The position numbers and the translations under genes were made by a program. DNA of 41,976 nucleotides from a virus: positions 44,179 through 86,154 of the IMG/VR virus record IMGVR_UViG_3300001460_000013; one strand, 5' to 3'. Positions 3,001-31,516 of this stretch are shown here, piece after piece. The number at the start of each line of letters is the position of its first letter. Within the stretch, counting starts at the first letter, position 1. The notes under the pieces are model-generated. The model saw only the letters and a program-made list of their open reading frames with translations. It did not search any database and was not told the DNA's origin.

Positions 3001-6000
3001 ACATCTCCTCCAAGAGTACCACTTCCTATATCGGTAGATGATAGCCTAACATTAGAAGACAAATTATTCAAAGTCATATCATGTGAATCAGTTTCTAAAG
3101 AAGGTTTATCCATCATTATATAATCAAAATATGGCAAAGTTGGTATGTCTTTAGATTCTTTTAATGCGTCAAATTCTACAGGATTAAAATGCCAATCATA
3201 TGTTGCTTCTACTAATCTAATAACCCCCCAACGTTTCATATTTGTTGGACTTTGTGGAGAACTTTTTATGGTCATAGATTCAAATTCATTTTCTGTAATT
3301 AGTGTTTGTTGAGTAGAACCTGTATAATTAAGATGATTAGTTACAATATCAGAAGTATTATGTTTAGACTCTAATAATAATCCATAGTCTGAAAATGGGT
3401 GTGCATTATACAACTCACTAAAATGAAACATATGATTCCAACGTAATTGAGAATTGGGATATATATCTCCGGTCACAAATAATTCAAGAGGTACAGTTCT
3501 AGGGTCAATTTGTTTAAAGGCATCATAATCAATATCTGCTTCATACCAATTACTACCCACTTGATATGGATATGATTTAATTAATTTATTTTGAGCATGA
3601 CCATAAAATGTATTAAGATAATTCCAACCATCTAATGTATTACTACCATTAATAGGAGAGTTTGTAAGACTTACTGCTACATCATATAATGTACCATCAG
3701 CACGAATACCACTTGCTATACCATACCCTTGTATTTTTTGTTGAGTTTTACCTTGGTTGTATATACTTGTTTGAGTTTGTGTAAGAGTTCCCTCTGTAAA
3801 TTTTTGTATGTCCCAAAAACGAATTGTATCTTTAGGAGTATATTGATTAGTATGAGTATCAGTAAGTCTATGTAAGAACCCACCATTGTTAATATTATTA
3901 TTTATTAGGTAAACACTTCTTGTAGTTCTTGAGTCTAAGGTGTTGTTTTCTATTCTACCTAAAACCATTGGAAAATTAGGAGCAATATAAATAATAGTTT
4001 CATTTTCTTCTTTAGTATTAATATCTACTATATTAAAAGTTTCAGCATTTTGTGTAGAGATATTATTGTTAGTTATGGAAATGCCATTTTCATCTCCTAA
4101 TTTAAAAGCATAATGTGAATCATTAATTCCTGCTCTAATTGGTGAATTAATATCATATCCTAATGTACCATCTACATCAATTGACCCCGTATTTGAAGAA
4201 TTAAATAAATTACTTGGGGTCGGAGTTGAACCTGTATTACTATTTGCGGCATCAGTAGTTTCTCTATAATTATAAGTAAATCCTTTCTCAAAAACTAAAC
4301 CCTGTTCTATGAAACTACTACTATCAGATACACTATCAGTTAATAATTTATTATGACTTAATGTTTTTAATGTAGAAATGTAGTTACCATCTTCTAAAGG
4401 TCTAAAATATTTAACATTTGAAGCAGAAGATACTAATGCCGGATGAGATAAAGTTATAGTAACTGTACTATTAGTAGTTCCACTAACAGAAGCAGAAGAT
4501 ACTTCTCCAATTAACTGACCGTTACTATCAACATAAAGCCAATATTTTCTAGGAACATGACCTCCTGATGTAGACTGATTAACACCACTAAGTGTTAATG
4601 TACTGCCACTAATAGAAACACTACTAGTACTAATAGTAGTAAATTCAGTTTTAGGTGGAATGCTAGCGCATATAATGTCAGTAGAAGTAGATAAATTACT
4701 ATTAGTTACATCAGTAATAAATTTAGAAGTATCATCTCTTCCTAATATCTCATAACTCATTAATCCATTTTGTTGTGTGCTAGTTATATCTTCTATACGA
4801 CCAGTAAACACTTCTTCAGTTATAGCATACGCTCCATTATAATAATATAATCTACTAATATTTGTAGGTTGATAGAATTTTCTACTTACATCTAAAATTT
4901 TAGCATATCTATTATTCTTATCTGCAAATTCAATTTCATTTAAATTTTTAGGGAATGAATTAGAAACCATTCTAGTTCCATACATTCTACTTTTAACCTT
5001 TGTACTACTAAACCCATTTATTGTAACTAAATTATTCCTTAAATGATTTACTGCGGTATCGGCCTCAAAAGTATAATTTACATATGCATTTCTAGTAATA
5101 GGAGTTGTGAACATTTTTTGTTTATCAAACTCATGAATAGATGTAGTAGTAGTCCACGTATTTGCAGTTATTAATTTATTAGCAATAACACTAAATGTTT
5201 GGGTGTTGTTAGATTTATTATTTATAGAATTTATAACATAGTGATACCCATCTATTTGAACAATATCTTGATTGCCTAAAAATGATTGTAAATCACCATT
5301 TTCTTTATCAAATGTCATAGTAATTAAAGTATTACTTGTTTTACTAACATGTCCGTCTAGTTCTTTTAGAACTAAAGAATCATTATAAATAGCATTACGT
5401 AAAGATAAAACATTATCTTCTTTTAATGTTTTATGACTTAATCCTGCACTATCTAATACTGTAACTCTTCCTAATTGACTAAGTTGATTATGAGTTTTAT
5501 TTAATATAACACTGTGTACAAATGGTATTTTATCATTTTCATACTGTGATTTTTCAAAAGTAATATACTTATTAGGGCCAGTTAACTTCCCATCTAAAGT
5601 AGTTTCTATTAAAGATGACGAAGTTGTAGTACCCCATTTTATATCTACCGTACTTCTTTTAGCATTTGGAAAAATGTATTGCCATCTAGTAGGATTTACA
5701 CTATTACTATTACCTGTATCAGTATAAGCATCAACATAATTAGTATGTGCAATATCTTCATTTAAATATTCATCAACAAGAGTTGCATCTATTTTTTGCA
5801 TACCTATATTTGTTATAGTATTATTAAATTTACTTTCTGTCATAAAGACAATATTTTGTGCGGTTCTACCTATTTTATAATTAACTGAACTACTAGTTGC
5901 GCTAATTGCAACTCTAGCAAAATCTAGATATATTCTATATGCTCCAGCACTTCCATATTTTTTTTCTATATTACCTACATGGACATTATTATTAGTAAAC

Positions 6001-15043: not shown

Positions 15044-15255
15044 TATTGAACCTTCCTAAATCTATCTTTATCTAAAACAACTTTATTAATAGTTTTTATT
15101 AATGTTTTAGCATATACTTCTTGTAACTCTTCTAACATCTTAGTATCTGATATAGCAAATTCGCTATATGCACTATCTTTTAAAAACTCATTACGGTCAA
15201 CATGTAGTTCTAATGCTTCTTTAATAGTTTTAGAAAGTTTTTCCATATTAATCAC
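15043..15255 (-). CDS. Small helical neck protein, function unknown
   Basis: This 70-residue protein (67 if the ATG at 15246 is used) is mainly helical and charged: MEKLSKTIKEALELHVDRN and EELQEVYAKTLIKTINKV. It overlaps the connector gene upstream and the tail terminator gene downstream, so it probably belongs to the head-tail joint. No family is recognised. Confidence 0.6.
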   Translation of the reverse strand: MINMEKLSKTIKEALELHVDRNEFLKDSAYSEFAISDTKMLEELQEVYAKTLIKTINKVVLDKDRFRKVQ

Positions 15256-16373
15256 GATATAAAATGTATCATCTTTTTCTTACCATCTAAAATGCTAGTG
15301 GCTTGTTCGATTAATATATCATGTTTAGTTTTTAAATCTATATTAGAACCAGTCTCAGCAATAAGTATAGAGTTATCATCATGTAGTAAAATGCTTGCCG
15401 CAGATAATTTAGTAGCGGCTTCATGTATAGATGAGTCTACTCTTCCATCTCCACTAACATAAGTTACTCTTACAGAATGATTTTGTAAATATGGATAATT
15501 CTTTAAGAAAAATATTTTTCCCTCATCTCCTATTTGCCAAAAATCTCCAGTTCTACTTGAACTTTCATTATCTTTAAATCCTGTAACTTCACCAACATTA
15601 GCATTACCTGAGTTTGTTGATGTTATAGTACAATTTTGTCCATCATCTCCTAATAATAATGAAGATATAACTACTGTGCTAGAATCTTCAGAATCCACAG
15701 TTGCATAAAAGAAATCTGAAATATGAATGTCATCCCCTGAAACCGAACCAATATCATTTGCTGTTACTGATTTAGCCGAACTTTCCCCTGTAAACTTAGC
15801 AGTTTTTGCAGGAAATACTTCGTTAATTGCATCTACTAATTGACTAGCAGTAGTTTTTGGGCCAAAGTTATCATAGAAATCTTTTGTGGTTGATGTACCG
15901 CCGAGGATAGAAAATGTCCAACTTCCTGCTACTAAATTTATAGTCCATACTGAATTGGTAACATTTGAAGGCATTTTTATTTTAGCAGTAGCAGATGCTA
16001 AGTCTTTGTAGGAATTTCCTTGCCATACTTCTAACCTAATTATTTTTTGTATTTTAGGTTGGTCTAACTGAATAAAACCAACATAATCTTTGTATGTTTG
16101 TACGGGATATGCCCCCATACTTGATGCTGTAAAACTATAAAACTCATCTTTGTATATTATTGGTCTATATGTAATACCAATTGTATTATCTATTTGGCCC
16201 TCTACATTTTTTATTATTTTTCCAACCTCTACTAGGTTTGGTGTAGTACTTGCAGAAAATGCACTAATTTGTAATAGATTAGAAATATCTGTATGAGTAG
16301 TATAAAATCCATTTCCTATAGAATAGTTAGGATTAATACTTGTAAAATCACTTGGGGAACTTAGTCTTGCCAT
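15252..16373 (-). CDS. Head-tail connector (adaptor) protein with inserted domain
   Basis: Residues 25-75 resemble adaptor proteins of the HK97 gp6 type: a helical start with ISNLLQISAFS, then EVGKIIKNVEGQIDNTIGI. The C-terminal part (315-370) is a long helix pair suited to docking under the portal. Between them, about residues 145-270, lies an insertion with TASQLVDAINEVF, VVISSLLLGDDGQN and CTITST. Its layout recalls the repeats in the LamG tail protein. Adaptors are normally near 100-200 residues, so the 373-residue length is explained by insertions. Gene order before the terminator supports the role. Confidence 0.6.
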   Translation of the reverse strand: MARLSSPSDFTSINPNYSIGNGFYTTHTDISNLLQISAFSASTTPNLVEVGKIIKNVEGQIDNTIGITYRPIIYKDEFYSFTASSMGAYPVQTYKDYVGFIQLDQPKIQKIIRLEVWQGNSYKDLASATAKIKMPSNVTNSVWTINLVAGSWTFSILGGTSTTKDFYDNFGPKTTASQLVDAINEVFPAKTAKFTGESSAKSVTANDIGSVSGDDIHISDFFYATVDSEDSSTVVISSLLLGDDGQNCTITSTNSGNANVGEVTGFKDNESSSRTGDFWQIGDEGKIFFLKNYPYLQNHSVRVTYVSGDGRVDSSIHEAATKLSAASILLHDDNSILIAETGSNIDLKTKHDILIEQATSILDGKKKMIHFIS

Positions 16374-19120: not shown

Positions 19121-19831
19121 TTAAGCCAACCACTTAGCCCAAGCGACTCCTTTAGTTATAGCCGCTCCTAATCCTAAGCCACTTGCCGGAGGTGTATATG
19201 TCATCTGTCCTGTAGCGGGGTCTATCCAGTAAGCATTATTCATTTGGTCATAACCTGCTGGCGGTACAGGATATCCTGAAGTATTATTCATAGCATTCAT
19301 TTGTTGATTCATAGTATTGTTCATACCTACACCCATATTACTTCCTTGGATATTTGCAGGATTCATACCCATTTGATTTGGCACTCCTCCTCCATATGCA
19401 GGTTGTGATGGCATTGCCTGTTGTGCAGGACTAGAAAATCCTTGAGATTCTAGATATTGTTGCTTAGCCATTCTTCTTTGCATAACAACTTCACTATTTA
19501 CTGCCGTAGCCAATAAAGTTTGTAAATCTAAAATAATATTTTCTTCTGTAATAGTATTCAAAGATGCCATTGCGTCAGAATGTAATGTGATTTCTCCACT
19601 ACTTTGTGTATTAAATTTTAATTGAGTTAATAATTTACTAACACTTCTTGATACTGCATCTTCAATTAATTTATCTAATGCCGCTAAAAATGCTTCACCA
19701 TGATATTGAAAGAAATCTTCTACATGATTTTCTTGTAGAGTTAATAAATTGTTCATTGTTTTAAATTGACTTTGATTATTAGCACTTATAGAAGACATTA
19801 TTTGCCCATTACTTGTTCCAAAAACTCCCAT
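19121..19831 (-). CDS. Asn/Gln/Met-rich protein with helical head
   Basis: Residues 25-130 are helical (NNLLTLQENHVEDFFQYHGE; AALDKLIEDAVSRSVSKLL). Residues about 130-200 are low-complexity, rich in Asn, Gln, Met, Gly and Pro (for example MNNTMNQQMNAMNNTSG), and likely disordered. The final 25 residues (SGLGLGAAITKGVAWAKWLA) are an amphipathic or hydrophobic tail that could touch a membrane. It overlaps the zinc-protein gene by one base and is the last member of the GTPase neighbourhood. No family recognised. Confidence 0.7.
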   Translation of the reverse strand: MGVFGTSNGQIMSSISANNQSQFKTMNNLLTLQENHVEDFFQYHGEAFLAALDKLIEDAVSRSVSKLLTQLKFNTQSSGEITLHSDAMASLNTITEENIILDLQTLLATAVNSEVVMQRRMAKQQYLESQGFSSPAQQAMPSQPAYGGGVPNQMGMNPANIQGSNMGVGMNNTMNQQMNAMNNTSGYPVPPAGYDQMNNAYWIDPATGQMTYTPPASGLGLGAAITKGVAWAKWLA

Positions 19832-20502
19832 TATTCTTCGACCCCCACTTGCTCTTGCACTTCTATCTTCGCACCTTCAGTTAATAAAGTTTTGACTCTT
19901 TCATTATTAGCATTACTTTCTATAATTAATCTAAATAATTCTTCTTCTTTAGATTCTTTACCTGACTGAGGAGGTTTAACTACCCATCCTAATGAAGATA
20001 AGGATTGTATATCCATCTGTTTAAGACTAGTTAACGGCCCTGATGCTAATGGATTTAAGTTAGGCATCTTAGGTATATATGCACTGTAACTTAAACCATG
20101 TTCTTCGGCTAGTATTTGTTGTTCTAACATCTCATACTGTCTATGTATAGATGCATGTTTATCACAATAAGTTCCTCTCATTGGATAGCCCTTTCTTACT
20201 TTATGTAATGGTAATGGTGGCCTCATGTTGTCTCCAGCATCCCAAACTTTTTGAGTTCCACAAACTACACATCTATCTTTCATGTTATATTTGAATTTAT
20301 ATGGTAGTTTTAGGAAAGTTTTCTTTTCAGGTTTTAGTATTTTTGTTATCTCCTTAAGTTGTTTTTTTGGTTTTATATTTTTATACTCATAGAGCATTAC
20401 TGCACCTGCGGCTCTACCTTGAGTAAATCTATCCAAAAAAGGATTTCCTACGTTCGTTGTTGTTGCTCCTATTAAGTTGGGGGGTTGGTAATTCATTGTC
20501 AT
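19831..20502 (-). CDS. Zinc-binding protein of the GTPase neighbourhood
   Basis: A likely zinc site is made by C78 and C81 (RCVVCGTQ) with C113 and H116 (YCDKHASIH). The region before it is basic (residues 42-75, many Lys). The C-terminal part has a helical acidic stretch (KESKEEELFRLIIESNANNE). It lies 10 nt after the GTPase gene and overlaps the following gene. It may be a virion linker or a partner of the GTPase; neither is shown by sequence. Function unknown. Confidence 0.7.
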   Translation of the reverse strand: MTMNYQPPNLIGATTTNVGNPFLDRFTQGRAAGAVMLYEYKNIKPKKQLKEITKILKPEKKTFLKLPYKFKYNMKDRCVVCGTQKVWDAGDNMRPPLPLHKVRKGYPMRGTYCDKHASIHRQYEMLEQQILAEEHGLSYSAYIPKMPNLNPLASGPLTSLKQMDIQSLSSLGWVVKPPQSGKESKEEELFRLIIESNANNERVKTLLTEGAKIEVQEQVGVEE

Positions 20503-20512
20503 TTTTTTTCAC

Positions 20513-21184
20513 CTAGTAATCTTTTATCATTGTTAATATGCCTCTATACACCATTTCTGAATCTGACTTAGCACTTACTATATATTTAAAACATGGTATT
20601 CCTTTGTCGTTTAGTTTTTGCATTCCTACTTTGAATGATTCAAAGATAGGATGTTTTTCTATTGGGCCATCATAATCATATTTGTCTTTCCACAAATCAT
20701 ATTTATTAGCCCACATTCCTACTGCAATTGGATAGTCATTAGATTTCTTTTTTTTGTTTTTTCCATTAACAGTCCAAGAATTAGCACAAATTGAATCTAC
20801 TAAAAAAGTCCAACATAGTTGTTGTTCAATGTCAAAATGTTTATCCATATGTCTGTCATCTATCATGAATATTATATATCTAACATGTCTATTTTTCATG
20901 TCTTCTATCCATTCACCCCAAAAAACTGTTTCTCCCCCAATATCCGCAGTTTTAACTGTATGAGCATCACCATCTAATTTTACATATTTTCTACTAGCAC
21001 GTTCAGTACCAACAGTTCGTTCTACTATTGTTGGTACTTCTCCTCTAGTTCTTAATTGATGATGTAATGTTGTCTTCCCTGCTTTACTAGCACCATATAC
21101 ACCAAAAGGAATAGAATGTAATCTTTGATAGATTCTATTCATACCCTCAACTAAGAGAATAGCAAACCCTGCCATTACAGACAT
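20513..21184 (-). CDS. Ras/Arf-like small GTPase
   Basis: All five guanine-nucleotide motifs are visible in 223 residues: P-loop G31-ASKAGKT (31-38), candidate switch I threonines at 52, 57 and 60 (VPTIVERTVGTER), DIGGE at 81-85, NKYD at 160-163 and SAK at 204-206. The DxGG form recalls Arf, G-alpha and Rag proteins. The residue after it is Glu rather than the usual catalytic Gln, so intrinsic hydrolysis may be altered. The first 15 residues are hydrophobic (MSVMAGFAILLVEGM) and might anchor it to a membrane. A Lys-rich loop (142-147) sits before G4. Two small membrane-protein genes precede it and a zinc-protein gene follows. Its GGTGAT ribosome binding site lies at the end of the upstream gene. 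GTP binding is well supported; the role in the virus is unknown. Confidence 0.85.
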   Translation of the reverse strand: MSVMAGFAILLVEGMNRIYQRLHSIPFGVYGASKAGKTTLHHQLRTRGEVPTIVERTVGTERASRKYVKLDGDAHTVKTADIGGETVFWGEWIEDMKNRHVRYIIFMIDDRHMDKHFDIEQQLCWTFLVDSICANSWTVNGKNKKKKSNDYPIAVGMWANKYDLWKDKYDYDGPIEKHPIFESFKVGMQKLNDKGIPCFKYIVSAKSDSEMVYRGILTMIKDY

Positions 21185-21188
21185 GCTA

Positions 21189-21413
21189 TCACCATAGATG
21201 ATTCCAAAAGTTTACCATACCTCCCCAAAGCCACCCATACATATTATAACCCATATGAGCAACTAAGTGTCCTGCACAAAAAGATGTAACAGTAGAGATT
21301 ATTCCCCATAACCAAAATCTTGCTCGTATAAACCATATGTCTGCGGAGTGCGCTCTTTGTAAATCATAAGCCATAGTAGACTCATCAAAACCCATTAGGA
21401 TTTCTCCGACCAT
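21189..21413 (-). CDS. Small membrane protein, 74 aa
   Basis: The N-terminal 30 residues are soluble (MVGEILMGFDESTMAYDLQR). A hydrophobic segment follows at about 33-52 (FWLWGIISTVTSFCAGHLVA), and a second, Trp/Gly-rich one at about 55-68 ends the protein near HLW. It lies 4 nt before the GTPase gene and 8 nt after another membrane-protein gene, implying coordinated expression and perhaps a membrane complex. It could also be a holin-like protein, but the setting among virion genes argues against that. No family recognised. Confidence 0.65.
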   Translation of the reverse strand: MVGEILMGFDESTMAYDLQRAHSADIWFIRARFWLWGIISTVTSFCAGHLVAHMGYNMYGWLWGGMVNFWNHLW

Positions 21414-21421
21414 TTAAATTC

Positions 21422-21844
21422 CTACCTTAACTCTGTTAAAAATGAGGGTGAAACTGTTTGTTCTTCGGCCTTATTAACCTGTCCAAATGTAGGTAAATTA
21501 TTATCTCCATAAACATTTGTTGGGCTAAATGTTTGTTGAAAGTTTCTCATAGATTCTCTAACCCTCTTACGATTCTCTTCATCTCTAGCCTTTCTATACC
21601 AGTAACTATCAATATTACGTTGAAGTAATCTATCTTCAATCATATCATGTATCATTAAATCAAAGGCCGCTTTCATAATCATAATAGCCCCAATCGTTAC
21701 AATACCAAAGAGTACTCCATGAGCATATCCTCCATAAGGAAAATCTACTCCATATTGAGTATAGAAGTAAACGTTAACTCCACTAACTGAACCTACGAAT
21801 AATATTGTCATTATTAGTCGTGTGTCTGTGTCTATGCTAGGCAT
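21422..21844 (-). CDS. Two-span membrane protein, 140 aa
   Basis: Two membrane segments are predicted by eye at about 10-28 (LIMTILFVGSVSGVNVYFY) and 42-64 (HGVLFGIVTIGAIMIMKAAF). A charged helical C-terminal region follows (YRKARDEENRKRVRESMRN), then a Pro/Asn-rich tail. It precedes the other small membrane protein and the GTPase. The charged tail could be the contact for the GTPase or for virion proteins. No family recognised. Confidence 0.7.
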   Translation of the reverse strand: MPSIDTDTRLIMTILFVGSVSGVNVYFYTQYGVDFPYGGYAHGVLFGIVTIGAIMIMKAAFDLMIHDMIEDRLLQRNIDSYWYRKARDEENRKRVRESMRNFQQTFSPTNVYGDNNLPTFGQVNKAEEQTVSPSFLTELR

Positions 21845-22996: not shown

Positions 22997-24385
22997 TCAC
23001 GCACTCTTCAAGTTAGTAATCTTACCTTGACCTTTGAAGAAAGAACAACATGTCTCTCCCATAGTACGGTACATTCCTTGATTACCAAGTTTACCAACTC
23101 CGAATGGATTTCCGTTTGAAATTCCATCCTCGAAGTATTGTGTAGGTTTCATAACCGCTAGCCACAAATGGTCAGTGTCTAAGAACAATATATCACTTAG
23201 TGGGTTAGCAGTTTCTTTTCCAGTATTAGGCATATCCTTTGATGGAATGATTGGTATGTCATAGTATGTTGCAACTCTGAAACCAACTTCTGAACCCTTA
23301 ACTCCACGAACACCGTTATGTGTAGGAACAATTTCTTTCCTATCCATAAATCTCTCTTGACTTTGTAATAAGTCAGAAATATGTTGTATAGTATCATATC
23401 CAGTTAACATAACTTTTGGATTTCCACCATTTTGGCGTATCTTTCTTAGCATGTCGTTTATCAATGTTAGAGTTAATACCCTTCCTCCGGCATAACTTGC
23501 ACCAAAGTCAACTTCAGCATCCATGAAAGATGAAGCCCCTGCTGAATAAGTAGAACCACTAACTGTAACTATTCTACCATCAGCCGCAGTTGTACCATAT
23601 AAATTAATCAAATGGTCTAATCCAGCCATAGTAGAATTGCCTGTCGCACCCATATCAGTTAAATCAGCATTAGCCATAGCCGCAATTTCTGCGGCAGAAG
23701 AAACTATCTTCATTAAAGAAGTATAATTTCTGTTCATGTTAAGTGCTGTTCCATCATTGTATCTTTCTAGAGGCATTAGTAACATCTTACTTTGAGTTTC
23801 AGCGTGATGCTTACCCATATCTTCTCTAACGATTGCACGTATATCTCCAACACCATCATCAATAGCGGCCATTTCCATTCCAAGTTCTGAGAACTCAAAC
23901 AAATGTGCTATTGTTTTAGGGCTTGTAAATAGTTTAGTGTATTCAGGAGACAATGCTCTGAATCCATTTGCTCCACCTAATGTTGCGTTTTCTTCTACTC
24001 CACCAATTTGGTCTGCTCTAGGTGTAGATAAATCAGTAACATTTTCTGCAACCTCAGTAGAGCCTACTTCAAAAGCCGCACCTGAACCACCAGTAGGTCG
24101 GGATTTTAATATTCTCCAACCGCTAGATGTGTATGGCCTCTTTGCTATCATAGACAAAGCGTTAACTTCTTGATTTAACATTGACCAAACTTTTTGTCCA
24201 TAAAGAACGTTATATAAATCACCAATGTTGAGTGAGTTACCGTTTAATGATGCTACATCAGCCGCTCCGTGAGCAGTACCAAAACCACCAACAACTCCAC
24301 TACTTTTTAGTAGTGCGTTACCTGATGCTCCGGCCATCCCATATGTGCTTGCTTCCAAATCTCGTATTGTATTTATGTATGTCAT
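22997..24385 (-). CDS. Major capsid protein (HK97 fold)
   Basis: The 462-residue protein follows the protease-scaffold gene and carries stretches typical of HK97-type capsid proteins: SPEYTKLFTSPKTIAHLFEF, LINDMLRKIRQNGGNPKVML, FRVATYYDIPIIPSKDM and a C-terminal LWLAVMKPTQYFEDG. The start is the ATG at 24385, because AAGGAGAG lies 7 nt upstream at the end of the protease gene; a frame extended to 24427 is not credible. The mature N-terminus may be set by the prohead protease. It should be the most abundant virion protein. Confidence 0.88.
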   Translation of the reverse strand: MTYINTIRDLEASTYGMAGASGNALLKSSGVVGGFGTAHGAADVASLNGNSLNIGDLYNVLYGQKVWSMLNQEVNALSMIAKRPYTSSGWRILKSRPTGGSGAAFEVGSTEVAENVTDLSTPRADQIGGVEENATLGGANGFRALSPEYTKLFTSPKTIAHLFEFSELGMEMAAIDDGVGDIRAIVREDMGKHHAETQSKMLLMPLERYNDGTALNMNRNYTSLMKIVSSAAEIAAMANADLTDMGATGNSTMAGLDHLINLYGTTAADGRIVTVSGSTYSAGASSFMDAEVDFGASYAGGRVLTLTLINDMLRKIRQNGGNPKVMLTGYDTIQHISDLLQSQERFMDRKEIVPTHNGVRGVKGSEVGFRVATYYDIPIIPSKDMPNTGKETANPLSDILFLDTDHLWLAVMKPTQYFEDGISNGNPFGVGKLGNQGMYRTMGETCCSFFKGQGKITNLKSA

Positions 24386-24387
24386 TC

Positions 24388-25050
24388 TTAATCTCTCCTT
24401 CCAACTAATGTGTGTATATCTCCCCAAGACATATCTGCTACTGCTGATAATGTTGTTGGGAATCCTTCAGGTAGTGACATAGCAACTTCTTGTGCTTTGC
24501 GTACTTCATTGTGCTGTGTAGTTAATGATTTGCGTAGTTCTGCAAATTCATTCTTTAATGCATTTACTTCAGCAAGAGCATCATATTCTTCTCTTTCTGC
24601 GTTAGATTTCCTAACTGCTAATTCACTTTGTAGTCTTGCTTCAAAGTCAGTACTTAGAGACTCATATGCCATCTTTTCCATTTTTTCTGCTTTGTAGGCT
24701 TCATATGCTTTCTCTACGTTTTCGTGAGTTAAGTTTAGAGTACTAAAATCAGAATCTTTTAATCCTTTAGATACTTTAAGAGGTGCTGGAGTTGCAACTG
24801 GGTTTCCACCACTTACTACTTCTTCACCTGCTTCAGAGTGTTGTAAATCCATGTCTAATGATTTACCTTCTCCATCATCCATTTCATCTTCTCCCCTTTC
24901 TAGGTTTTCAGGGTCTTCATCGTCTGTATCCATGTAACTCATGTCACCTTTCGTTTCTTCATCTTTCGTTTCGTCTTCCTTGTGAACATCACTGACTTGT
25001 TTCATCAAGTCGTTTAGTTCATCAAGGGCTTTTTCAAGTTTATCACTCAT
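24388..25050 (-). CDS. Nested scaffold protein from internal start
   Basis: An in-frame ATG at 25050 (residue 187 of the protease fusion) is preceded by AAGGAGG with 7-nt spacing, a stronger site than many genes here. Starting there gives a 220-residue protein (MSDKLEKALDELNDLMKQ...) made only of the acidic and coiled-coil scaffold part. This parallels lambda, where Nu3 scaffold is translated from inside the protease gene C. The site is seen; its use is inferred. Confidence 0.6.
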   Translation of the reverse strand: MSDKLEKALDELNDLMKQVSDVHKEDETKDEETKGDMSYMDTDDEDPENLERGEDEMDDGEGKSLDMDLQHSEAGEEVVSGGNPVATPAPLKVSKGLKDSDFSTLNLTHENVEKAYEAYKAEKMEKMAYESLSTDFEARLQSELAVRKSNAEREEYDALAEVNALKNEFAELRKSLTTQHNEVRKAQEVAMSLPEGFPTTLSAVADMSWGDIHTLVGRRD

Positions 25051-25633: not shown

Positions 25634-28255
25634 TTAAGTGCTATTTTCTTTTGGAAATTCTAAATCTGCATATTTATCTTTGGTAATATCCCATAAATTT
25701 TCATCTTCATCTAAAGGTAACATATCTTGTTTTTTACCAGTCCATGCAAGCCATGTTTTCTTTTCATCTATAGGTAAAACTCTAATATGAATTCTAGTAT
25801 CAAACTTATCTCCTTCTAATTTATATTCATGATATCCTTGCTTTTGTACTCCAAGAGTAATACTACCTGAATCTAAGGTTTTTCCATCTCCTAAAGATTC
25901 TGAAACAATAGCAGGATATTTCCCTGATTTACCAAATAAATTAAATATATCTTCAGTATCATCTATTTCAATAGTCCACGCATTTCTTTTATCTTTATAT
26001 TCTATAATAAAATCTATATTTTCATCTTCTCTACGTTTAATAACAAATTTACCTGTTCTATCTTCTTTTTTTAATGTCTCTACATCTTTAGTAACTTCAT
26101 CTGTTTGCACACTAAATTTATTTGGATGATGGTAAATAAAACTAACATCTCCTTCAGTTTTCATCCAACTCATTAATTTATCTTCTTTATTATCAAATAC
26201 ATCTAAGTATGTTTCAGGATAATGTTCTTTAACAAACTCTACTATACTTTCAAAATTTACTTTAGGTCTTCCTGATTCTAATATTTCATTTTTAATTCCT
26301 ATTCTCAAATCTGACCTTTTTGTTTTAATTATCTCAGACAACTGTTCTTTCCATATGTCAATATCATATAATGCATTCTTTTGCATTAAGTTATCTCCTT
26401 CAAATCCGTAAATTGTAAACCCATCTAAATCTTCTTTTAATATAATTTCAGCAGTACCGTGTATATTATCTGTAACATAATATGCTTTCTTAACATTATT
26501 TTGTTTCTCACCAACACCACTCATAATTTTATAAGGTGTTCTTAATACAGACTCCCCTAAGAAATCTAAAGCAGATTCTAAAGATTTTTTAGTTTTAGTT
26601 GCTAAGTGTTCTAATGTTTCTAAAGTATCTGAAACTAAAACTTCAGGAACTTCAATTACTTTAGCAGAATATAAACTAAAAGATTTACCTTTCTTTTTAA
26701 CTTCATCTACCTTGACTCTAATAATTCCTCCAACTTTTACATTAGTTTTAGTATTCAATGCTTTACCTACTTCTAAATATTCCTTATCTTCAAATTCTAC
26801 AGTTTCATATTCTCTAACTACTGAAGCAGGTACAGGGCCGATACCCATTGTGTAGGAATGTAGGCCACTAGATGTTTTTCTATCTTTCAAAACAACAACA
26901 TCTAAGTCTACAAATTTTTTCCATTTAATCCATTTAGGGTTTTGTGATATACCACGATAATACGTTGATTCTATATCTTTTATTACAACTCCTTCTGAGG
27001 CAGGAAGTTTCATAATTTCTTTAGAATATTCTTCTACTTCCTTTATAGAATCAGCCATGCGAGTATCTTTCTTAGATGGGAATGCTAACATTTCTGAAGA
27101 ATGTTGTGAGTATTGATATAATAAAATATTAATTCTTTCTCTTAAGGATTCTTCCATAATAGATTTACCTTCATGTTTCATTATGTCAAAAACATGCGCT
27201 CTTAAAATTCCTTTTTTCTTTTCATCTTTTAATTTAAAAACATGAGTAATAGTATCTGCTCTGTGTAATGGTTCATCTTCTAAAAATAACATAAGTTCTG
27301 CATCTAATATACAATCACCAAAATGTTTCTTTTTCATTTCCTCTACTTGTTCGGGACATTTATCAGTAATATCTATTTTATTATATGAGTAAATTTTAAC
27401 ATTATTATCTATTTTATGTATTTGTATTCTCATACCATCATACTTTTCTTGCACGATAAACTCACCACTAAGTCCACGTATTTCTTTTAAATCATCTATT
27501 TCAAAAATTCTAAACATTGGCTTATTAGGAATTATAAAATCTATAGCAGATTTTTGTTCTTCACTTTTGGTTTCCGCCTTCTTAAGACTAGAACCAACAT
27601 CTACTTCTTCTATATCTTCCCACCTATCCTCACCATATTTTTCTACAAACATGTTTTCTAAAATATTAATTGCCCCTTTAATTTTACTAGATATTCTCTT
27701 AGTGTCTTTACCATCACCATAATGTTCTTTAATATATAATTCTAAATCATCTATTTCTAAATCTAATCCCATAGAACCCTGAGTTATTTCATCCGGTTTC
27801 ATATCATTTTCTAACCATACTTTTTTTGGTAATGCATTACTATGAGAACGAATTGCATAGTGTATAAAAGCAACTAATATATTTGTTTTTTCTAAAAAGA
27901 CTTCAATAACCTCATCTCCTAATATTTTAGAAAATGGGTCATCAACAGATTTAGATTTAAATCTCATTTCTTTAATGTTATCATAAATCCTTTGTGCAGT
28001 AGTAGATGTAGGGTCTTTTGCATCATCAGCAAAAGCGTCTTTTTCTTCTAAATATTTTTTGAGTTCTTTAGCAAAATCATCTAATGAATCGAAGGTATCT
28101 TGTATCTCTTCTACTGTTGACTTCCATTTAGACCCATATTCTTTGGGGTTTTCCTTAGCGGACAAAAAGGAATATCTAACTCTTTCAAAAAAATCTAATA
28201 CTCTTTTAGATAAATCGCTAGTTTCTTTTTCAAAACTTATTCCTGTCTGTGGCAT
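25634..28255 (-). CDS. ATP-dependent DNA ligase with extra terminal domains
   Basis: The nucleotidyltransferase core is clear: motif I EKYDGMRIQ with lysine K271, motif III LDAELMLF (E320), the FDIMKHEG region (357), motif IV EGVVIKD (421-427) and motif V KWIKWKKF (441-448), followed by an OB fold to about 540. The protein seals DNA nicks using ATP. The first 240 residues are a helical region with no close match to usual ligase DNA-binding domains by eye. Residues about 560-860 are an additional region; 735-845 (GKFVIKRREDEN, NAWTIEIDDTE, TWLAWTGKKQD) loosely recall the LigD 3'-phosphoesterase fold but lack its catalytic histidines. At 873 residues it is long for a viral ligase. It sits between head genes, suggesting it may be packaged or used during packaging; that is inference. 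Confidence 0.85.
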   Translation of the reverse strand: MPQTGISFEKETSDLSKRVLDFFERVRYSFLSAKENPKEYGSKWKSTVEEIQDTFDSLDDFAKELKKYLEEKDAFADDAKDPTSTTAQRIYDNIKEMRFKSKSVDDPFSKILGDEVIEVFLEKTNILVAFIHYAIRSHSNALPKKVWLENDMKPDEITQGSMGLDLEIDDLELYIKEHYGDGKDTKRISSKIKGAINILENMFVEKYGEDRWEDIEEVDVGSSLKKAETKSEEQKSAIDFIIPNKPMFRIFEIDDLKEIRGLSGEFIVQEKYDGMRIQIHKIDNNVKIYSYNKIDITDKCPEQVEEMKKKHFGDCILDAELMLFLEDEPLHRADTITHVFKLKDEKKKGILRAHVFDIMKHEGKSIMEESLRERINILLYQYSQHSSEMLAFPSKKDTRMADSIKEVEEYSKEIMKLPASEGVVIKDIESTYYRGISQNPKWIKWKKFVDLDVVVLKDRKTSSGLHSYTMGIGPVPASVVREYETVEFEDKEYLEVGKALNTKTNVKVGGIIRVKVDEVKKKGKSFSLYSAKVIEVPEVLVSDTLETLEHLATKTKKSLESALDFLGESVLRTPYKIMSGVGEKQNNVKKAYYVTDNIHGTAEIILKEDLDGFTIYGFEGDNLMQKNALYDIDIWKEQLSEIIKTKRSDLRIGIKNEILESGRPKVNFESIVEFVKEHYPETYLDVFDNKEDKLMSWMKTEGDVSFIYHHPNKFSVQTDEVTKDVETLKKEDRTGKFVIKRREDENIDFIIEYKDKRNAWTIEIDDTEDIFNLFGKSGKYPAIVSESLGDGKTLDSGSITLGVQKQGYHEYKLEGDKFDTRIHIRVLPIDEKKTWLAWTGKKQDMLPLDEDENLWDITKDKYADLEFPKENST

Positions 28256-28853: not shown

Positions 28854-29210
28854 TTATTTATCTCCTAACTTGCCTTTACTTTTAGGATAGACTAATCCAC
28901 GTAGTTGATTATATAATGTTTCATATTCCTTTCTTAATTTAGAAGCCGTAGCCACTATATCTAAATTTGCTTCTTCAAATTTTTTCATTTCTTTATTTAA
29001 TTTTTTATCTGTTTTAATTACATCTACACCTTTTAACTCATCTATAAGTTCTGTAAGTTTAGTCATTTCTTGACCAAAAAATTCTGTAGGTTCACTAGCC
29101 TGTAAAACTTTTTTAAGTTTCTTTTTTTGTTTAGAATTAGTCTTACCTATAGCATCAGAGAGGCTAAATAGAGATGTCTTATCATCTTTTAGAATATCTT
29201 CCCAACTCAT
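28854..29210 (-). CDS. Small helical head-region protein beginning MSWEDILK
   Basis: The 118-residue protein is helical and Lys/Glu/Leu-rich (ELIDELKGVDVIKTDKKLNK; ASKLRKEYETLYNQLRG). Its first eight residues are identical to those of the large protein encoded immediately upstream, with which it overlaps by 4 nt. No known family. A head-assembly or scaffold-associated role is inferred from position and the shared N-terminus. Confidence 0.65.
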   Translation of the reverse strand: MSWEDILKDDKTSLFSLSDAIGKTNSKQKKKLKKVLQASEPTEFFGQEMTKLTELIDELKGVDVIKTDKKLNKEMKKFEEANLDIVATASKLRKEYETLYNQLRGLVYPKSKGKLGDK

Positions 29211-29211
29211 A
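29191..29211. repeat. 21-nt direct repeat at gene start, copy A
   Basis: These 21 bases are identical to 31497-31517. Both copies cover the start codon and the following codons for SWEDI at the beginnings of two neighbouring genes. The identity at DNA level ends abruptly downstream. Confidence 0.75.
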
Positions 29212-31516
29212 GTAGACCCTCTAACATAGTTTTCTTACGATTAATTCTTCTTAAAGCCTTTGCTATCTTCATTGATTTTGTTACAGTCTCATCTTCGACA
29301 TACTCTTCCTTTCTATTTTTATATTCATTGTATAATTTTGTTAAATTTGAGTTCTTTCTATTGGGGTCAAATTGTAAATATTTTTTAATTGTTCTTTCTA
29401 CTTCCGCCGTTTGTGGTTTTCCATAAAGTTCTTCGTCAATTATTCTTTGTTCTTCTGTGGTGAATAAATCAAACTTGTTGAAATCCCATTTTTGTAATTC
29501 TTTAAATGAAGACTTACTTGATAGTACCGCACTATGTCCTAATAAATCTAAAGTTTGATATAAAAACTCTAATTCTTCAATGAGTCCCTCTTGAGTTTTC
29601 TCTCCATATATTTGAGCATCCATTATCATTTCCTTATGTTTTTCTCTAGTAATCTTAGCCTTAGGAGTAAGTTTTCCTGTAACCTTATCTTCCTCATCTA
29701 TCTTAGTAAAATCTATTTGTTCTATACGCTCTAATGTTCTGTATGATTTTAATACGGGGTATAGTGTTTTAAAGAATTTTTTAACAAAAACATCTACATC
29801 TGTGTTAAAATGGGCATCTACTCCCTCTTCTGTAGTGAGATTATATTCTGCTTCTAAATTAGGCTCTACAGTAGTTGCTTCTTTAGCATCTTTTATATTT
29901 TGAAAGAACTCTTGAAATATACTAAATTCATTCTCTTTTTTTGCTTTGCCTCTTTTATCTGAATTATCAGAAAAATCACCTGATATATTAACAGGTTGAT
30001 TACGATGTTCTCTAATTTCCTCATACAATTTTCTTGCATCTTTTTTCAGACCAGTGCCATACATTCTAAATCCACTTTCTTTACCATCAGGATTTTCTTC
30101 TGTTTTTCTTCCTTGTATTATCCATGTTTCATCTTTTTCATCCCACTTTGCCCCGTCTTGAAAGCGAATAAATGCATTATTGCGATATTCTAAATTGCCA
30201 CGCTTTCCATTATATAGTGCTTGTTCATATTCTTCGGTAGTCTTAGGAGAGAAAAATCCAGCCTTTTCCGCTTCACGAATTAAACTTATATCTCCTGACT
30301 TTTGATTTTTCCACCTTGTTAGCATTCTTATTAATAATGATTCATTAATCATACTTTTAGGAACATTAGTATCTTTAGATAATTCTAATAACATATTTTT
30401 AATTGTACGTAGTGCATTATTTGGAGTATCTAGATATTTATTACTTTTAAATTTCTCAACAAATTCCCAGTTTTGTATGCTTCCATCTATTTTATCTAAT
30501 ATTAGAAGTACGCCATCTCTTCTTTTCCTAAAGTTATCTTCATCTTGCTGACGGTTTTTTCTATTAGTATCAACATCATCACTTTCAATTTGATATACTA
30601 CATTTGAAAATATTTCGTCTAACATTTTTAATTGTCCTTTTGTTAACGATTTAGTGCTACGGTCTACCACATCTACCACCTCCCCGTTTATTGAGTATTC
30701 TATTTTTCCTCCATAATCCTTAATGGAGTTTTCATAGTTTTCTATTGCTTCTTTTGTTCTTTTCAAAGAAATTTCTTTCTTTTTCTTTTCTTGTATTATT
30801 TTTTTAGATAAATTTTTTCGCTTATATTTTTTATCTTCTAATTCTTCTTCTAATTTTTTATATTCATTTTTAATATCATTTATCTTATCTTGCATTTCTT
30901 TATATTTACTACTTTCTTTATTTTGTAATAATTTATCATCTACCAAATTTATATCAGAACGTGCTATGAAACTTAAATATAATGCAGATTCTTCTAGGTC
31001 GTTTTCGGTATATTTTACTGAAAAGTTTTTTCTTCTTGCGTTAAACATTTTTATAATATCGTCATGTAATACATCACCTATATCACTTAATCCTTCCTCC
31101 AAGTCTTTTTGTTCTTGAGCCGAAAACAAATCTTCCATTGTCATACCTCCTTTAGATGATTCTACCTTTGTTTCTTTCTTATCCTTTTTATCTTTCTTAG
31201 GAGGTTGTACATCTAAATTTATATTATTCTTAGAAGGATTAGAATATGCTGGATTTTTACTTTCTAAGCCCAGTTTCGGACGCCTCCACTCAGGATTTAT
31301 CATTGGAAAACCCACTACCTTCTGTGCTAACTTTAATTGTCTATTTAATTCTTTTTTCTTATCTTCAGATAAGTTTTTATCTTTCAATTTTTCTTCTAAA
31401 CTTTTTATTTCCTCTCTTGCTTCTACAACTTTAGGATTGTTTCTATCAAATGCTTCTTTTGTATTCCAAGGCCGTTTGGTTTTATCTTTAACCTTAAGAA
31501 TATCTTCCCAACTCAT
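29207..31516 (-). CDS. Large coiled-coil head-region protein beginning MSWEDILK
   Basis: The ATG at 31516 is favoured because AGGTGAG lies 5 nt upstream; a GTG at 31525 would add three residues. The 769-residue product is strongly charged. It has coiled-coil stretches near residues 35-65 (EAREEIKSLEEKLKDKNLSE) and 205-265 (EYKKLEEELEDKKYKRKNL), a Lys-rich linker about 100-120, and a helical C-terminal half ending KALRRINRKKTMLEGLL. Its start motif is shared with the next gene. No enzyme motif is visible. It lies where some phages encode internal head or MuF-like proteins, but no such domain was recognised. Confidence 0.72.
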   Translation of the reverse strand: MSWEDILKVKDKTKRPWNTKEAFDRNNPKVVEAREEIKSLEEKLKDKNLSEDKKKELNRQLKLAQKVVGFPMINPEWRRPKLGLESKNPAYSNPSKNNINLDVQPPKKDKKDKKETKVESSKGGMTMEDLFSAQEQKDLEEGLSDIGDVLHDDIIKMFNARRKNFSVKYTENDLEESALYLSFIARSDINLVDDKLLQNKESSKYKEMQDKINDIKNEYKKLEEELEDKKYKRKNLSKKIIQEKKKKEISLKRTKEAIENYENSIKDYGGKIEYSINGEVVDVVDRSTKSLTKGQLKMLDEIFSNVVYQIESDDVDTNRKNRQQDEDNFRKRRDGVLLILDKIDGSIQNWEFVEKFKSNKYLDTPNNALRTIKNMLLELSKDTNVPKSMINESLLIRMLTRWKNQKSGDISLIREAEKAGFFSPKTTEEYEQALYNGKRGNLEYRNNAFIRFQDGAKWDEKDETWIIQGRKTEENPDGKESGFRMYGTGLKKDARKLYEEIREHRNQPVNISGDFSDNSDKRGKAKKENEFSIFQEFFQNIKDAKEATTVEPNLEAEYNLTTEEGVDAHFNTDVDVFVKKFFKTLYPVLKSYRTLERIEQIDFTKIDEEDKVTGKLTPKAKITREKHKEMIMDAQIYGEKTQEGLIEELEFLYQTLDLLGHSAVLSSKSSFKELQKWDFNKFDLFTTEEQRIIDEELYGKPQTAEVERTIKKYLQFDPNRKNSNLTKLYNEYKNRKEEYVEDETVTKSMKIAKALRRINRKKTMLEGLL

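Follow-up and report, generated by a model that had tools for sequence, protein, structure and literature searches.

A predicted small GTPase is co-inherited with four partner genes in the virion gene block of magrovirus-type tailed viruses

Introduction

Membrane-controlling small GTPases are a hallmark of eukaryotic cells. In archaea, vesicle budding has recently been shown to be GTPase-driven too: the haloarchaeal small GTPase ArvA carries an N-terminal helix and shares its operon with ArvB and the Zn-ribbon protein ArvC, and its deletion abolishes the production of vesicles while its overexpression raises it (PMC10927574). With regard to viruses, the Rab/Ras proteins of giant viruses (mimivirus Rab, PDB 5xc5; pithoviruses) are virus-encoded and constitute the closest viral fold matches of the protein described here; however, they are eukaryote-type proteins of eukaryotic viruses, and they are not part of a fixed cassette in a capsid-tail operon. 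Magroviruses, whose B-family DNA polymerase (PolB) is encoded in separate N-terminal and C-terminal pieces and whose genes are organized into two opposed modules (PMC10768690), are predicted to infect marine Poseidoniales archaea and, according to published reports, occur throughout the surface ocean. In the literature searched, no paper named both a magrovirus and a GTPase, a brief mention in the text, tables or supplements of the primary papers being possible, and the word GTPase is absent from the 2023 magrovirus survey.

Here, we analyzed a window of 41,976 nucleotides (positions 44,179 to 86,154 of the IMG/VR record IMGVR_UViG_3300001460_000013) in which a predicted small GTPase gene forms part of a five-gene cassette, in the order tm140-tm74-GTPase-zn223-p236. 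This locus resembles the ArvABC (ArvA/OapA) system in its archaeal setting, in its single-domain small GTPase with an N-terminal helix and in the presence of a gene for a putative Zn protein in the same operon. It differs in that zn223 does not match DUF2072 (ArvC) and no DUF2073 (ArvB) partner was found in the cassette, neither zn223 nor p236 matching either family, and in that the viral cassette adds two membrane proteins and lies in a virion operon. The likeness, for which the GTPases were compared by description only, is therefore one of working parts and not of membership.

Results

The source record comprises 86,154 bases and encodes a PolB split over two ORFs, a zinc ribbon of the TFB type, an RFC-like ATPase and an ATP-dependent DNA ligase for replication, together with a pyrimidine-dimer glycosylase and a PD-(D/E)XK nuclease. 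The virion module, on the opposite strand from replication, includes an SU10-type capsid protein, an S78 protease, a portal, a terminase and a tail tube. Thus, the split PolB, TFB, RFC, ligase, glycosylase and opposed modules are shared with magroviruses, and the features that define Magrovirales (two-piece PolB, TFB, RFC, ligase and SU10/HK97 MCP) were all found when compared with the published description (PMC10768690). By its gene content, the source virus is a magrovirus-type tailed virus, which upholds the tailed-virus virion operon proposed in the first-pass annotation. Like that of these abundant ocean viruses as a whole, its host is probably an archaeon, the assignment to Poseidoniales resting on the magrovirus papers. 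The division of PolB into two ORFs, at L102:2569-4209 and 4674-5606, is as described for Aoguangviridae, and a Concanavalin A-like lectin protein (Laminin_G_3, 3.4e-12) at L102:13461-14180 is possibly a receptor-binding or tail-tip protein.

In the window, the major capsid protein is encoded at 22997..24427 on the minus strand, as are all window features given below, and was identified by matches to SU10_MCP (1.7e-11), to phrog_24667 (major head protein) and to the HVTV-1 MCP; the closest named capsid proteins are those of haloarchaeal HVTV-1 and HCTV. A putative head-tail connector, p373 (15252..16373), was recognized by an HMM match to HVTV-1 gene 125 (1e-16). The claim that the GTPase gene lies amid virion genes was likewise confirmed, with MCP, prohead protease, portal, TerL and tail tube as neighbours, and small gaps between the genes of this capsid-tail block suggest a single late operon. 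A further protein of this operon, of 873 aa (25634-28255), carries an ATP-dependent DNA ligase domain (PF01068, 1.3e-27) and is present in 74/74 loci; it has no match in the phage collections, and a complete second DNA ligase sits in the replication module (L101:14715-16274).

The GTPase ORF (20513..21184) encodes 223 aa and was assigned on the basis of weak Pfam matches, NCBIfam TIGR00231 and a predicted fold like that of Rab/Arl structures. The first-pass annotation had read five intact G motifs in this copy, and all of them hold in an alignment of 84 representative sequences. The G1 P-loop GASKAGKTT (residues 31-39; 21068..21094) has G31, G36, K37, T38 and T39 invariant, as is G28 upstream of it. 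The candidate switch I threonine of G2, Thr57 (21014..21016), lies in the motif R-T-V-G, with R56, T57 and G59 invariant, at a spacing of 20 residues from the P-loop Lys (19 in Ras). Similarly, D81, G83 and G84 of the G3 switch II motif DIGGE (residues 81-85; 20930..20944), N160, K161 and D163 of G4 NKYD (residues 160-163; 20696..20707) and S204, A205 and K206 of G5 SAK (residues 204-206; 20567..20575) do not vary. In a wider set of relatives, the motifs GxxxxGKTT, DxGG[E/Q], NKxD and SAK are intact in 227/227, which speaks against chance. The position of the catalytic Gln, residue 85, is occupied only by Glu (176/227) or Gln (51/227); that no other residue occurs at this site argues, from sequence, that hydrolysis is preserved in the family. 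The earlier statement that Glu replaces Gln therefore holds for the window copy but not for the family, in which both residues occur.

The Arf-like flavour that had been attributed to the protein was supported in part. As in Arf/Arl/Sar proteins, which are among its closest Pfam and PDB matches, there is a T-[I/V]-G switch I, a DxGG[Q/E] switch II and a helix before beta-1. In contrast, the G5 motif is a Ras/Rab-like SAK and not of the Arf type, residue 2 is not the Gly needed for myristoylation (it is Ser in 20/20 members of one alignment), a Lys-rich insert precedes beta-5, the gene belongs to a viral operon, and no family cut-off is reached. In particular, the Pfam matches (SRPRB, MMR_HSR1, Arf, Roc and Ras) are weak, and the window copy falls below every Pfam cut-off, including those of SRPRB (22.2 vs 25 bits) and Arf (17.2 vs 22.3 bits). 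SRPRB, its best Pfam match at 1e-4, is also comparable in having a hydrophobic N-terminus, but differs by this sub-threshold score. The NCBIfam profile TIGR00231 (small_GTP) matched 20/20 members tested, with a best value of 2.4e-6 and the window copy under the cut-off, and the best PDB sequence match, 8oun, is labelled just 'GTP-binding protein'.

An AlphaFold2 model built from 84 sequences (pLDDT 77, pTM 0.77), which replaced a 20-sequence model (pLDDT 65), shows a helix at residues 2-22 followed by strands and helices that alternate as in Ras, with a short hairpin (136-145) before beta-5 and then a Lys-rich stretch; the six-stranded Ras fold is present. Foldseek matched this model to 1,357 PDB chains at E<=0.001, with Rab33, Rab1 and Arl8b at the top of the list, and the 50 matches inspected among these 1,357 were mostly Ras-superfamily GTPases. 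The Rab/Arl matches reached E-values down to 1e-8 with TM scores of 0.5-0.7; given these scores and the low confidence at the P-loop and switch I, the fold cannot tell the GTPase subfamily. Structure prediction thus returned a small-GTPase fold rather than the other kind of P-loop fold, such as that of a kinase, that the first-pass annotation had named as counter-evidence, and, together with the Pfam and NCBIfam profile matches, it sustains the identification as a genuine small GTPase. A misread P-loop kinase or other non-GTPase NTPase, to which a single weak NCBIfam kinase match (0.017) could point, is highly improbable, since DxGG, NKxD and SAK, all of them specific to GTPases, do not vary and the predicted fold finds small GTPases as its matches. 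On sequence and model, we consider it nearly certain that the protein belongs to the Ras/Rab/Arf superfamily of small GTPases.

Scans of IMG/VR with the GTPase protein and with its alignment returned 85 and 359 related stretches, respectively, and a scan with a divergent member as query returned 188. The relatives fetched share 58-94% identity within the group, as opposed to about 20% with the general superfamily, and no family members between these two levels were found in this pattern-based scan, which would miss distant ones. Nor did the GTPase match anything in the phage, plasmid and PHROGs collections or in PADLOC. As judged by these comparisons, the viral family is an orphan within the superfamily. 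A search for a cellular relative in 84,980 species genomes yielded only two contigs of a Maricaulis MAG, NZMJ01000101.1 (L082) and NZMJ01000024.1 (L083), and was rejected as such: both are magrovirus fragments, likely mis-binned because each carries the capsid gene and the complete cassette. With regard to selection, the median dN/dS was 0.053 for the GTPase and 0.075 for the capsid protein (Nei-Gojobori, roughly paired samples), and the GTPase was the more conserved of the two in 50/53 loci chosen by the capsid protein. Purifying selection is therefore strong, and stronger on the GTPase than on the capsid protein.

The cassette is located between the capsid and connector genes, followed by p909 and then p373, and its gene order is unbroken in 235/235 complete copies. 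Of 158 distinct loci that extend from the capsid to the connector gene, with p373 taken as the right boundary, 138 contained all five genes, 20 contained none of them and no locus contained only some. Rather than being missing from related viral genomes, which the first-pass annotation had named as grounds for doubt, the GTPase was found in 55/55 loci that were identified independently via the capsid gene and had enough downstream sequence. More distant viruses came from scanning with the HVTV-1 capsid protein as the lead query. In a sister lineage (L289-L291, L294, L298 and L325), all five genes are absent while the capsid and protease genes, and the connector genes wherever the sequence extends to them, are closely related; in L290, L291, L294 and L325, a large ORF directly follows the small capsid-side genes with none of the cassette genes between, the ORF of L325 being inferred from an open frame that runs off the contig. 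No displaced GTPase was found in 18 related or sister records, many of which are fragments. The all-or-none pattern and the cleanly closed gap in the sisters indicate that the five genes act as one unit of gain and loss; as the loci are related to one another, this pattern may reflect a single event. Furthermore, the existence of viruses that have related capsids but no cassette means that it is no basic part of head-tail assembly.

Upstream of the GTPase, tm140 (21422..21844) is predicted to cross the membrane with two helices, carries a charged tail that is conserved, and reaches the transmembrane threshold in 235/235 copies, while alignment and hydropathy show that tm74 (21189..21413; 74 aa) has an invariant RAHSAD motif followed by a hydrophobic segment, which attains a Kyte-Doolittle value of 1.6 in 196/234 homologues, with the window copy below it. 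The N-terminal hydrophobic helix of the GTPase itself (residues 2-22; 21119..21181; pLDDT around 80) is a borderline membrane segment: the median most hydrophobic 19-mer begins at residue 1, the transmembrane threshold is reached in 77/227 members, and its helical moment is no higher than that of shuffles. Directly downstream, zn223 (19831..20502) encodes a putative zinc-binding protein with a CxxC...CxxH motif (C78, C81, C113 and H116 invariant) that is kept in 23/23 aligned members, and its conservation nearly equals that of the capsid protein. The last product, p236 (19121..19831), consists of a conserved helical N-terminal region, a middle part rich in Met, Gln and Asn and a C-terminus that is invariant and includes KWL; its residues ~186-215 form an invariant WW-like stretch, PPxG..YW.D..GQ..Y..P, for which Pfam WW was detected in two members only (0.03). 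Neither zn223 nor p236 nor tm140 has a credible family in Pfam or PDB, and tm74 likewise belongs to no known family.

Another feature of these viruses is an N-terminal peptide of the type MSWxDILK, written more fully as M(S)W[EKQ][DN]I[LI]K, that begins proteins of more than 100 families with no relationship to one another. With all loci counted, M-(S)-W-x-x-[IV]-[LI]-K occurs at 363/6,621 ORF starts vs 3/5,247 internal methionines, and at 415/6,197 vs 4/3,404 when counted by strand. BLAST finds no relationship among the 120 clusters into which the tagged proteins fall, although a few of these clusters are probably chance matches, and the final three residues of the tag are encoded by 100 different codon triplets, so the peptide itself is under selection. 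Two tagged genes lie in the window between portal and protease (28854-29210 and 29207-31516), and the tag was seen at many loci (e.g., L017, L027, L153 and L291). Enzyme identities guessed by eye for the tagged accessory proteins were dropped, as no Pfam domain was present. The tag resembles the logic of the T4 capsid-targeting sequence, one peptide on diverse internal head proteins, the T-even phages having highly diverse internal head proteins that share only this sequence (PMC3012670); by this analogy, it is likely a packaging signal. ORF insertions in the cassettes occur only beside the GTPase gene, with 13 distinct ones before it, 21 after it and none at the other two junctions (e.g., L104, L133, L138, L153, L167, L319 and L324). 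Of the 34 distinct inserted ORFs, 31 start with the tag, and one (L010) is the start of zn223 and not an insertion.

Discussion

The membrane role envisaged for the GTPase in the first-pass annotation is strengthened by the two adjoining, co-inherited membrane proteins and by the hydrophobic N-terminal segment. We tentatively favour, at a little short of an even chance, a membrane-anchored late GTP switch whose recruitment of zn223 and p236 would serve the assembly of virions or their exit at the host membrane. Late in infection, tm140, tm74 and the N-terminal helix would put the switch on the host cell membrane; the GTP-bound protein would then recruit zn223 and p236 as effector and/or GAP-like partners, zn223 being a candidate GAP or effector; and the GTPase with its partners would drive a step, coupled to the membrane, in the assembly or exit of virions. 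Formation of one complex by the five products, a membrane location of the GTPase and the step that it would control are inferred. A bolder version, which we regard as somewhat unlikely, is that tailed archaeal viruses possess their own membrane-remodelling GTPase machine, made up of the GTPase, the two membrane proteins, the zinc partner and p236 and parallel in function to Arf/ArvA, by which virions would be assembled or released at the host membrane.

The position of the cassette between the capsid and connector/tail genes, with which it is apparently co-transcribed, could also fit an entry function, in which the GTPase, tm140 and tm74 would be delivered along with the DNA as minor components of the virion and would build or regulate a route across the host membrane. 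The putative head-targeting tag on other genes of these viruses, and the insertion of tagged ORFs only in the flanks of the GTPase gene, would be compatible with this, but the tag is found on 0/5 cassette proteins, and we consider such a function unlikely. The same position, and a conservation of zn223 nearly like that of the capsid protein, could instead reflect a soluble assembly factor, namely a GTP-driven checkpoint of head completion or head-tail joining that involves zn223 and p236 and to which the membrane proteins would be incidental. That tm140 and tm74 never occur apart from the GTPase, and that close relatives build heads and tails without any cassette gene, makes this explanation quite improbable. 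Finally, the viral GTPase might not act on virions at all, but mimic or compete with host GTPases such as ArvA and redirect membrane or vesicle processes. The switch regions, which are intact and have the Arf-like motifs TVG and DxGG, and the use of small GTPases for vesicles by archaeal hosts (PMC10927574), lend this idea some appeal; however, the fixed co-inheritance with four virus-specific partners suggests a machine of the virus's own and a late-operon position is unusual for a host-takeover factor, so that we hold it to be improbable.

The small GTPase as the centre of a fixed five-gene membrane cassette is new here, and the literature searched suggests that membrane control of this kind is undescribed for tailed viruses. 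If the proposed late membrane switch is correct, the cassette would offer a compact GTPase-membrane system for study, in which a strictly conserved late gene has dedicated membrane partners, and a testable case of a virus employing a GTPase switch in particle morphogenesis. It would also provide a concrete clue to how the uncultured viruses of Poseidoniales are built, enter or leave their hosts.
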